Source: a virus. Taken from it: DNA of 22,390 bases. Of the stretch, positions 7,823 through 10,733 are shown piece after piece. The translations under genes and the position numbers were made by a program. The DNA is taken from the IMG/VR virus record IMGVR_UViG_3300031963_001000, positions 1 through 22,390 of that record; one strand, written 5' to 3'. The stretch's first letter is position 1. Each line of letters opens with the position of its first letter. Under the pieces are notes generated by a model, which was not told the origin of the DNA, ran no database searches, and saw nothing but the letters and a program-made list of their open reading frames with translations.

Positions 7823-8020
7823 ATGTCTGATTATTACAAGGAGGTGCTGCGAATTGCGGCAATCCTTAACTCAAGAGATTACAAAATTGTCGATGTAGTC
7901 AAGGACACCGGCCTAACATACAGCACCTTAAACCGGGTGCGCAATTACAAAAAAGGCGAGGTTGATTATCTGCCATCGCCCCGAACAATCGCTGTGCTGT
8001 CAAAATATTTTAAGGCTTAG
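7823..8020 (+). CDS. Small helix-turn-helix DNA-binding protein (Cro/repressor-like)
   Basis: The 65-residue protein is almost entirely an HTH domain. DYKIVDVVKDTGLTYSTLNRVRNYKKG (about 19-45) has the helix-turn-recognition-helix pattern of XRE/Cro-type proteins, followed by PSPRTIAVLSKYF, the usual closing helix. AAAAGGGG precedes the ATG. It is divergent from the recombination operon and 5 bp upstream of the primase gene, so it is likely to be an autoregulator of the divergent promoters. A role as replication initiator binding the repeats near 10340 is a less likely alternative. Confidence 0.75.
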   Translation: MSDYYKEVLRIAAILNSRDYKIVDVVKDTGLTYSTLNRVRNYKKGEVDYLPSPRTIAVLSKYFKA

Positions 8021-8025
8021 TCACC

Positions 8026-10335
8026 ATGCAGGACATCTGGTGGGAAGAGGGTTATTGCGTCTTTGGTTTACACGCCATCAGGGACGGGCGATGCACCTGT
8101 GATAATCCAGATTGCACCATGGCGGGTAAACATCCATGGGCGTATGGCTGGCAACATGGTCAAGTGTGGTCAGATGAACAATACGAAAACATGGTCGAGG
8201 CTGGCGCGTTCAAAACAGGTTATGGCCTCTTGGTCAAGGGGCTGCTGGTCATTGATGTTGATTATCGCAACGGCGGTATTGCATCATACGCTCGTTTAAT
8301 GGAGGACTTCCCGGAAATTTCAGGCTGCGGCTTGATCGTCAACACTGGTAGCGGTAACGGCTCGCGACACCTGTATTTTAAGATGCCAGATGGCGCTTAT
8401 GTCCAACATATAGAGAAATACCCCGGCATTGATTTTAAGACCACCGGTTACGTTGTTGGCCCCGGCTCGATGCACAAAAGCGGCAATCCTTACACGGTAT
8501 TATCTGGCTCTATACAGGATATTGACGACGCGCCAGAGCGGCTTGTACCGGCATTGTTAAAACCAGAAGTCAAGCGCGTTACCCACAACGGCCATGCTGT
8601 TGATGTTACTGACGCGCAATTGGTTGAGATGTTGTCGTTTATCGATCCTGATTGCGGGTATGACACGTGGATCAAGGTCGGCATGTCTCTGCATCATGTC
8701 AGTAGTGGCGCTGGTCTTGATATTTGGGATAAATGGTCGCGCAACGGCAAAAAATACCCCGGCCATTCCACACTATCCAGTCATTGGCAATCGTTCGGCA
8801 AGTCCAGCAATCCTGCCATGTATGGCACACTGCACCACATCGCCACAAGTGCCGGGTGGTCGGCTGCTGTTGAGTTTGTCATTCCAGACGGGCTGTTTAC
8901 CGATGACGCGTTTGACGTGCGCCAGATTGACCTGTTGCGCCCTCCGGGCTTTACGGGTGTAATATGCCGTTGGATCAACAGCCAATGCCGCCGCCCCCGT
9001 GAAACGCTGGCTGTTGCCGCATCCCTTGTGACGATTGGGAATATCATCGGCCTGCATCATATTGATGCTGTGGACGATGTTACAAGCAACCTGTTTGCGT
9101 TTTGTGTGGCAGGGGCAAGAACAGGTAAAGAGGCCATCCAGCAAGCAATGGGAAAGCTGCACAAAGCGGCTGGTATCCATCCGGCGGTGCATGGCTCCAT
9201 TAAGTCGGAGCAGGAAATTTTACGGAACCTTACGCGCCACCAATCGGCCTATTACATCATTGATGAAATCGGCATTTTTTTACAGAAAATCAAAAACGCT
9301 CAAACACGCGGCGGCGCGGCTTATCTTGAGGGTGTTATCGGCGCGTTAATGGCGGCTTACTCTAAGGCAAACGGCACTATGCTGTTGACGGGCGATATGA
9401 AAGAAGAATTACGCGCCGCCTTAATGAAAGAGCACAGGCACCTTGTTCGCCAGCTTGATGAAATACCAGCTAGTGACCACCCGCGTGTTCAAAAGATTAT
9501 CGACCGCGTGGAAAGGCAGATTAACGAATTGAATGATGGCTTAGTGAACCCGTTTTTAAGCATGGTTGGGTTTACCACGCCAGTGACCTTTGATGATGTT
9601 GTTGATTTTCAGGCGGCAACAAATGGGTTTATTGGCCGAGCACTGATTTTCAATGAGCGTGAAACCGTTCCGCGTGCTGTGATGGGTTTTAACCCGCCAT
9701 CGCTTGATGAGCATACGGCATTGCGCCTTGAGATGCTGGCGTTAGGCGGCACGATGTCCACAGCCAAACGCGATAGGATCGAGCGCGACGCGACGATTCC
9801 AATCAGTGTTGTTGACACTACCGCCGAGGCGGAAACAATGCTTAGAGAGTGCGTCACGCACTTTGAGGACATGGCCCTTGAGTTCAAGGCAACAACCGGG
9901 CTTGAAGCCCTCGCACTGGGGGCTTATGAGTTGGTTGCTAAGGTGTCGTTTATTCTTGCCGCCCCTGATGGTGTGCGAACGCTCGAGCATGTCCGGTGGG
10001 CGTTTGCTTTGGTCAAAAACGATATTGACCAGAAAGCACGGCTGGTGTCCAGTAACGACCACAGCGAGGACGACCCTGACAAGGCATTGGCCCTAAAGAT
10101 CATGTCGATTGTTGACAGTGAGGAAGGGGAGGGTGAGGGAGTTATCGTAAACCGATGCAAAAAACGCGGTAAAAACGGCGTTGGTGGCGACCGCGAGAAG
10201 GTTTTGTCTGTTCTGGCAAGGCTGGTTGATAAAGATGTTGTCACAAAAACGGTTAAGGATTACAATGATGGCTCTGGTAGGGCTGTGTGTAAAACGACTT
10301 ACTTTCTTACCAGAACTAATTACGCAATAACTTAG
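8026..10335 (+). CDS. Primase-polymerase / helicase fusion (Prim-Pol, PriCT-like, DUF3987-like)
   Basis: This 769-residue replication protein starts with a zinc-site-like CTCDNPDC (23-30) and KHP, then shows Prim-Pol motifs VIDVD (75-79, DxD), SRH (113-115) and GIDFK (135-139). A PriCT-like segment lies about 195-265 (YDTWIKVGMSLHH). The C-terminal half resembles DUF3987-type phage helicases: a modified P-loop VAGARTGKEA (361-370) and Walker B IIDEIG (411-416). The P-loop has Glu where Ser/Thr is usual; I believe this occurs in relatives. The last 90 residues look winged-helix-like. There is almost no ribosome site, so it probably depends on translation from the HTH gene 5 bp upstream. It should prime and unwind phage DNA, perhaps at the repeats just downstream. 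Confidence 0.88.
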   Translation: MQDIWWEEGYCVFGLHAIRDGRCTCDNPDCTMAGKHPWAYGWQHGQVWSDEQYENMVEAGAFKTGYGLLVKGLLVIDVDYRNGGIASYARLMEDFPEISGCGLIVNTGSGNGSRHLYFKMPDGAYVQHIEKYPGIDFKTTGYVVGPGSMHKSGNPYTVLSGSIQDIDDAPERLVPALLKPEVKRVTHNGHAVDVTDAQLVEMLSFIDPDCGYDTWIKVGMSLHHVSSGAGLDIWDKWSRNGKKYPGHSTLSSHWQSFGKSSNPAMYGTLHHIATSAGWSAAVEFVIPDGLFTDDAFDVRQIDLLRPPGFTGVICRWINSQCRRPRETLAVAASLVTIGNIIGLHHIDAVDDVTSNLFAFCVAGARTGKEAIQQAMGKLHKAAGIHPAVHGSIKSEQEILRNLTRHQSAYYIIDEIGIFLQKIKNAQTRGGAAYLEGVIGALMAAYSKANGTMLLTGDMKEELRAALMKEHRHLVRQLDEIPASDHPRVQKIIDRVERQINELNDGLVNPFLSMVGFTTPVTFDDVVDFQAATNGFIGRALIFNERETVPRAVMGFNPPSLDEHTALRLEMLALGGTMSTAKRDRIERDATIPISVVDTTAEAETMLRECVTHFEDMALEFKATTGLEALALGAYELVAKVSFILAAPDGVRTLEHVRWAFALVKNDIDQKARLVSSNDHSEDDPDKALALKIMSIVDSEEGEGEGVIVNRCKKRGKNGVGGDREKVLSVLARLVDKDVVTKTVKDYNDGSGRAVCKTTYFLTRTNYAIT

Positions 10336-10443
10336 CTGATTACGCACTTGTTACGCACTTGTTACGCAGCCTAAGCTATTGAAATATAGTCTCGTTACTC
10401 ATTACGCACCAAAAGCGCAGAATTGAGAGAAAACGAGAACAGA

Positions 10444-10455
10444 GCCTCTAGAGGC
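10444..10455. repeat. Perfect 12-bp palindrome GCCTCTAGAGGC
   Basis: The palindrome lies inside the core between the two iteron arms, followed at 10458-10469 by CCCTAAAAAGGG. Neither is followed by a T tract, so they are not clear terminators of the primase transcript. Confidence 0.5.
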
Positions 10456-10484
10456 ACCCCTAAAAAGGGCTTAATGGAAATCAC

Positions 10485-10503
10485 TCCAAATTATATATTT
10501 GGA
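10485..10503. repeat. A+T-rich hairpin in candidate origin core
   Basis: TCCAAAT (10485-10491) and ATTTGGA (10497-10503) pair around TATAT. A second overlapping pairing TTTGGA/TCCAAA (10498-10512) makes competing hairpins possible. Such A+T-rich foldable DNA suits an unwinding element. Confidence 0.45.
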
Positions 10504-10525
10504 TTTTCCAAATGATTTTCCTATT

Positions 10526-10544
10526 CTATAGTATACTACTATAG
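10526..10544. repeat. Perfect hairpin CTATAGTA-TAC-TACTATAG in origin core
   Basis: An 8-bp perfect stem with a 3-base loop, very A+T-rich, near the middle of the region between the iteron arms. Confidence 0.5.
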
Positions 10545-10705
10545 CTAAGTGTATCTAAATGCTTAGCATGTTGTTGGTTTGTTCTTTTATATATTATTAT
10601 TATATCTCTATAGCTGCGTAATGAGTAACGAGATTGTTTATCAATAAGTTAGGGTGCATAATCACTGCGTAACAAGTGCGTAATCAGTATATTGAGTGTA
10701 TCCAG

Positions 10706-10733
10706 ACCATATTGCCGACGTTGGCAATATGGT
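10706..10733. repeat. Perfect 11-bp inverted repeat (ACCATATTGCC / GGCAATATGGT)
   Basis: Two perfect 11-bp arms (10706-10716 and 10723-10733) flank the 6-base loop GACGTT. It lies 18 bp outside the right iteron arm. No T run follows, so it is not a typical terminator. It could bind a dimeric protein (operator, partition or recombination site). A 63-codon reading frame starting at a GTG (10696) crosses it, but the frame has no recognisable family. Confidence 0.55.

Follow-up and report, generated by a model that had tools for sequence, protein, structure and literature searches.

Results

Gene content of the window

The window, by which we mean the entire 22,390-nucleotide stretch of DNA that was analysed, is a linear 22.4-kb virus record with an overall A+T content of 50%. 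Genes for the terminase, portal, and major head protein occupy its right part, and the left part carries recombination genes (a helicase, a YqaJ exonuclease, and a Sak4-like AAA protein). A minus-strand open reading frame of 105 residues at 1210–1527 is made up of repeated five-residue units of the pentapeptide-repeat kind. The gene for a Prim-Pol protein is preceded by one for a small HTH protein, an order found in most members of the family, and is followed directly by a mirrored array of short repeats (Table 1). Immediately past this array lies a near-perfect 14+14 bp palindrome, ACCATATTGCCGAC/GTTGGCAATATGGT, at 10706–10733; it resembles a terminator, and the relative L005 has a similar one. 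Rfam yielded no match to a known RNA element. The cumulative GC skew reaches its minimum about 2.3 kb upstream of the array, where gene direction switches, and since the skew tracks gene direction, it discriminates neither the position of an origin nor bidirectionality.

Table 1. Coordinates of the mirrored element, its parts, and the two adjacent genes
Feature	Position	Strand	Basis
Small Cro/C1-type HTH protein gene, upstream of primase	7823..8020	+	Pfam HTH_26, weak match
Prim-Pol protein gene, 769 aa, predicted initiator	8026..10335	+	Pfam, PHROG 3022, AlphaFold2 and Foldseek
Unpaired additional TTACGCA unit, over the final primase codons	10320..10326	+	
Left arm: outer TTACGCA repeats at 10340, 10351, and 10362 (11-bp steps); inner pair at 10395 (TTACTCA) and 10402 (TTACGCA), 7-bp step	10336..10408	+	
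IHF-like site TAAGCTATTGAAA, one mismatch, between outer and inner left-arm repeats	10372..10384	-	
Core, 206 bp, 67% A+T, small hairpins on left side	10409..10614	none	
Right arm: inner pair at 10615 (TGCGTAA) and 10622 (TGAGTAA); outer repeats at 10655 (degenerate, TGCATAA), 10666, and 10677; TTACGCA on the minus strand at 10677, 10666, and 10615	10615..10687	-	
IHF-like site TATCAATAAGTTA (exact WATCAANNNNTTR), between inner and outer right-arm repeats, mirrored orientation	10639..10651	+	

A mirrored element starts 1 bp after the primase stop

An initial annotation of this DNA had described two inverted arms sharing one centre, with every repeat pair adding to a coordinate sum of 21023, and both the coordinates and the shared centre were borne out. 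The arms are complementary at 62 of 73 positions (85%), and the left arm begins 1 bp after the stop codon of the primase gene. The sum of 21023 is the sole peak of symmetry, with 68 of 87 positions matching as opposed to 14–29 at neighbouring sums, and the symmetry score of 45.5 lies far above those of 100 dinucleotide shuffles (mean 9.7, maximum 14). The layout that had been described, three TTACGCA-type repeats per arm at 11-bp steps and one more within a perfect 19-bp block (10390–10408 and 10615–10633), is present as well, but the mirror partner of the repeat at 10362 is degenerate by one mismatch and the unit at 10320 is unpaired. The 19-bp block also contains TTACTCA, 7 bp before TTACGCA. 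The core had been characterized as A+T-rich and filled with hairpins. It is A+T-rich relative to the window, reaching 80% near 10489–10538, and is the probable melting region, but it is only modestly richer in hairpins than expected by chance (z = -1.9).

When the two arms are compared with each other, the repeat units match at 34 of 35 positions and the spacers at 28 of 38, and this difference is expected if selection acts on the repeats. It bears on a reading in which the element is an origin like that of plasmid pRN1 and what matters is that the two arms fold into a large cruciform or stem-loop, with the repeats as by-products of an inverted duplication. The arms are a true inverted repeat whose spacers match too, and the pRN1 origin is a stem-loop 3′ of a Prim-Pol gene in which structure is conserved and sequence little (PMC4234260). 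However, the repeats are better kept than the spacers, most other family members have the repeats and their spacing but no long complementary arms free of gaps, extrusion would be unfavourable because of the 206-bp loop, and the core folds only modestly better than chance. We regard such a cruciform origin as quite improbable.

No other opposed-repeat array in the window is as good as this element, and the same holds for a 34.5-kb sister contig, where it is identical letter for letter. It occurs once per genome, the sister contig is the only other place in which it was found, and no DNA similarity was found in phage records. The initial annotation had held that copies of the unit at unrelated sites with target duplications would mark it as a MITE; no such copies were seen, and we rejected a MITE or transposon. 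More generally, the element might serve in recombination, as an attP whose arms carry integrase sites of the arm type, or in partition, or it might be a mobile element with inverted repeats, since repeat arms around a core recall attP arm sites and paired inverted arms recall a MITE. Across lineages, however, the plan goes together with the Prim-Pol gene, and this whole group of readings seems to us highly improbable. An attP was rejected because no tyrosine integrase (PF00589) was detected in the window or in three relatives, four records in all that may be incomplete, in a search whose positive control worked. A DnaA-dependent origin was likewise rejected, there being no match to a DnaA box inside the element; the nearest match is at 10286, within the primase gene. 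Nor does the element conform to a classical iteron plasmid origin, with a one-sided array and DnaA boxes, because here opposed arrays lie on both sides and no DnaA box is present.

Opposed arrays recur after the Prim-Pol gene in about 20 lineages

From viral contigs and phage records we collected 124 loci of Prim-Pol relatives, which fall into 89 nucleotide clusters, and searched 520 bp around each primase stop blindly for opposed repeats (9-mers with at most one mismatch, score of at least 5). Opposed arrays were found after the primase gene in 20 of 83 independent clusters as opposed to 0 of 350 control regions, which were of equal length and lay upstream of the gene, inside it, or further downstream. 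A variant of the search with exact 7-mers gave 16 of 65, again with none in the controls. These counts are probably low because several members below the threshold (e.g., L110) show weaker repeats by eye. On the protein tree the arrays are clustered, yet they occur on early as well as late branches. The cultured Pseudoalteromonas phage H103 has a matching plan, with GATAGTA repeats and 44–61-bp arms in a 506-bp gap after its primase gene. A genome collection yielded only six relatives, all in metagenome-assembled genomes, and no relatives of the helicase were found in plasmids.

The repeat sequence itself varies between lineages (AGAATAGTA, CAGAAATAG, ACAAATAGT, ACGGATATG, GACCGTTAG, TTGATAGTA, CACTTATGC, and others). 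Thus, the conservation of arms and spacing for which the initial annotation had asked is found as a layout in about 20 independent lineages, but the repeat letters have diverged, and one close relative, described below, is without arms. From these searches, we conclude that the opposed-repeat layout is a feature of the family of Prim-Pol relatives and not a curiosity of one phage.

The spacing plan is kept although the repeat letters change

Read from the outside inward, an arm consists of two or three repeats at 10–12 bp steps, a gap, two or three repeats at 7–9 bp steps, and then the core. The gap between outer and inner repeats is about 32, 40, or 66–79 bp across the family. Of 26 arms, 20 have a wider step at their outer end than at their inner end, and 2 show the reverse. 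L052 provides the best example, with six repeats per side, five pairs of which fall within 1 bp of a common centre. A mirror register fits better than simple translation in 8 loci, worse in 1, and equally well in 14; this agrees with expectation, though weakly, since few sites are available in most arms. This spacing plan is kept although the letters of the repeats change.

In the window, an IHF-like site lies between the outer and inner repeats of each arm, and the two sites sum to 21023, as the repeats do. Across the family, IHF-like 13-mers matching a consensus taken from outside were present in the outer–inner gap in 14 of 33 cases as opposed to 14.8% expected, with a p-value of 1e-4 that is generous because the motif had been spotted by eye in the same sequences beforehand and nine loci with irregular arrays were omitted. 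Thirteen of these 14 gap sites are in mirrored orientation. IHF-like sites are also enriched 3′ of the gene in array-negative relatives taken as a whole set. The right-arm gap of some elements, chiefly those whose gap measures about 78 bp, contains a further palindrome, GTTAGCGCTAAC; it is exact in L039, L007, and L090, has one mismatch in L050, L067, and L009, and is perhaps the site of another protein.

Some relatives keep the primase without the arrays

The closest relative, L005, has a primase 88% identical to that of the window and no arms. In L005 (6310–6470), similarity breaks off at the final codons of the gene, and about 120 bp of unrelated DNA replaces the arms up to the palindrome that both genomes retain; no comparable array was found anywhere in its 21-kb contig. 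Either the origin of L005 has moved beyond the contig or it works differently. L005 is the main fact against strict coupling of gene and element: a close relative with the primase but without the symmetry had been named beforehand as the result that would count against an origin, and it is seen this once, outweighed by the other lineages. In addition, a clade of 26 clusters (including L034, L049, L056, L105, and L151) has almost no detectable arrays. In two of these, L105 and L151, the next gene begins at the primase stop, so their origin may lie elsewhere.

The Prim-Pol protein is predicted to carry an MCM-like helicase and a winged helix

The protein encoded directly upstream of the element contains an AEP primase domain (residues ~31–171), a PriCT_2 domain (201–273), an MCM-like AAA+ domain of the DUF3987 type (~296–680), and a C-terminal winged helix (684–761). 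Pfam matched Prim-Pol (PF09250, E 1e-19) and PriCT_2; it gave no match over the helicase part of this protein, and DUF3987, which is predicted to be a helicase (PMC5862659), was matched over that part in 46 of 63 relatives. AlphaFold2 gave good models, with a pLDDT of 85 for the whole protein and 92.5 for residues 296–769 (helicase and winged helix), and residues 684–761 were modelled as three helices and a two-stranded wing. With Foldseek, the N-terminal half matched the primase domains of pRN1 (1rni) and NrS-1. The closest matches of the helicase part were MCM proteins, which form hexamers, followed by Orc1/Cdc6, and no SF3 helicase was among the top 50. The TM-scores of the MCM matches are low (0.35–0.40 over the query), so that "MCM-like" is a statement at the level of the fold. 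Searching solved structures by sequence gave no useful match. In related primases, C-terminal winged helices have been suggested to recognize origins (PMC5862659).

In one clade the repeat follows the primase wing and not the HTH protein

The initial annotation had named either the Prim-Pol/helicase or the small HTH protein as the likely ligand of the repeats, and five relatives distinguish the two. L090, L094, and L104 have GGATAT-type repeats in common together with a similar wing (PAGxGxTxK/R), and L007 and L009 have CACTTA-type repeats and another wing (FGKGG-RTTE). The wing end of L009 was read despite a frame break in its primase gene, where an in-frame stop (L009 2447–4572) may be an assembly error. 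The HTH proteins group the other way: that of L090 goes with those of L007 and L009 (77–87% identity), and BLAST finds no similarity between it and the L094 and L104 proteins. Thus, L090 and L104 have winged helices that are 69% identical and the GGATAT repeat in common with unrelated HTH proteins, whereas L090 and L009 have HTH proteins that are 87% identical with different repeats and wings. Within this small clade, therefore, the repeat follows the primase wing and not the HTH protein, and the first of the two proposed ligands is favoured over the second, as far as five members can tell. The HTH slot before the primase is kept while its type changes, an unrelated HTH having taken the place of the small HTH gene in L007, L009, and L090. 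Across the family, covariation of repeat and winged helix was positive and was not significant after allowing for relatedness of the helicase domains (partial 0.11, Mantel p = 0.16).

The same comparison bears on whether the element is an operator and terminator region, in which the repeats, as binding sites for the small HTH protein or a different phage repressor, would govern transcription around the primase operon and play no part as an origin. The usual place of the HTH gene just before the primase fits such a role, as does an intergenic element with small hairpins that is followed by a terminator-like palindrome. However, HTH type and repeat type cross-cut in the five relatives, the arrays lie 3′ of the gene and not at a promoter, and mirrored arms with a 50–200 bp A+T-rich core and IHF-like sites would be an unusual form for an operator. 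We consider an operator unlikely; judged from these sequence comparisons, the HTH protein is probably a regulator rather than the protein that binds the repeats.

Discussion

We think it likely that replication starts at the element and that the phage's primase-helicase binds it through the winged helix as two opposed complexes, with binding, assembly, melting, and direction all inferred. This reading draws on the fact that about 20 independent lineages have the layout 3′ of their Prim-Pol gene, on the predicted MCM-like helicase and winged helix, and on published replicons with the same order of gene and origin. The original proposal of a phage origin is thus supported, but the type of gene–origin pair is one already known from SaPI, SCCmec, and pRN1.

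In SaPI and SCCmec, the C-terminal domain of the helicase binds repeats directly downstream of its own gene, with the SaPI helicase apparently bound as two hexamers (PMC7581432). The SCCmec helicases are termed MCM-like in the title of a reference cited in PMC5862659. The SaPI and SCCmec systems (Rep/Cch2) are like the window in having a short-repeat origin directly downstream of an initiator-helicase gene, and an MCM-like fold with a C-terminal DNA-binding domain is common to both, predicted for the window from AlphaFold2 and Foldseek. Their primase is a separate protein, whereas the window has AEP primase, helicase, and winged helix in one chain, and the parts of the descriptions available to us do not include mirrored outer and inner spacing or IHF-like sites in the arms, both of which the window has.

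The pRN1 origin is a 100-bp stem-loop just 3′ of the gene for ORF904, a Prim-Pol/helicase/winged-helix protein, and has no iterons; two opposed hexamers, with forks running both ways, were proposed for it, and the idea of opposed hexamers was carried over to Bordetella phages (PMC4234260). Like the window, pRN1 combines an AEP Prim-Pol, a helicase, and a C-terminal winged helix with an origin immediately 3′ of the gene, and, as in the window's family, form is kept while sequence diverges. Unlike the window, it has an SF3 helicase where our model resembles MCM, and a compact stem-loop in place of ordered repeats in both arms around a 206-bp core. The Prim-Pol of phage NrS-1 has one recognition site per strand near the genome centre, a proposed origin (PMC7102993). 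It too is an AEP Prim-Pol fused to a helicase (hexameric in NrS-1), but with two isolated 8-nt template sites and an SF3-like helicase where the window has repeat arrays. At archaeal origins, inverted initiator sites flank an A+T-rich melting element, and the helicase is an MCM. The archaeal initiator, Orc1/Cdc6, is a separate protein, whereas in the window the winged helix is inside the helicase-primase.

We propose the following model. The product of the upstream gene, with its AEP primase, MCM-like AAA+ helicase, and winged helix, would bind the repeats through the winged helix. The outer repeats are about one helical turn apart and the inner ones 7–9 bp apart, and bending at the IHF-like site between them may bring both tiers together, so that a helicase ring could be seeded on each arm. 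With the arms mirrored, the two rings would be loaded in opposite orientation. The A+T-rich core would then melt, and the primase domain could prime both strands. The initial annotation had pictured two facing protein filaments; since the predicted helicase resembles the ring-forming MCM, two opposed rings are likelier, and we set the filaments aside. Bidirectional replication would fit the mirrored symmetry.

Although this type of gene–origin pair is known, the mirrored two-tier arms appear to be new: we found no description of such arms with IHF-like sites in the Prim-Pol family in the literature searched, most of it outside subscription journals. More tentatively, these elements may constitute an undescribed and widespread class of phage origin that needs no separate initiator or loader. 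One polypeptide, uniting primase, MCM-like helicase, and a winged helix for origin binding, would read a two-tier repeat code that is mirrored and has one bend site per arm, and would thereby place two MCM-like rings in opposition. Such an origin would be a minimal and self-contained analogue of MCM double-hexamer firing, a possibility to which we give somewhat less than even credence.

The placement of helicases on duplex DNA is usually studied with many proteins. If our reading is right, this family would offer a compact one-protein system for the opposed placement of MCM-like ring helicases on duplex DNA. With variable repeats on a constant plan, and repeats that match the wing in close relatives, swaps of specificity are directly testable. 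The reading would also supply a spacing rule with which further origins of this kind may be found, and it would name the origin of a large group of phages, uncultured and cultured, that carry AEP Prim-Pol/DUF3987 proteins.
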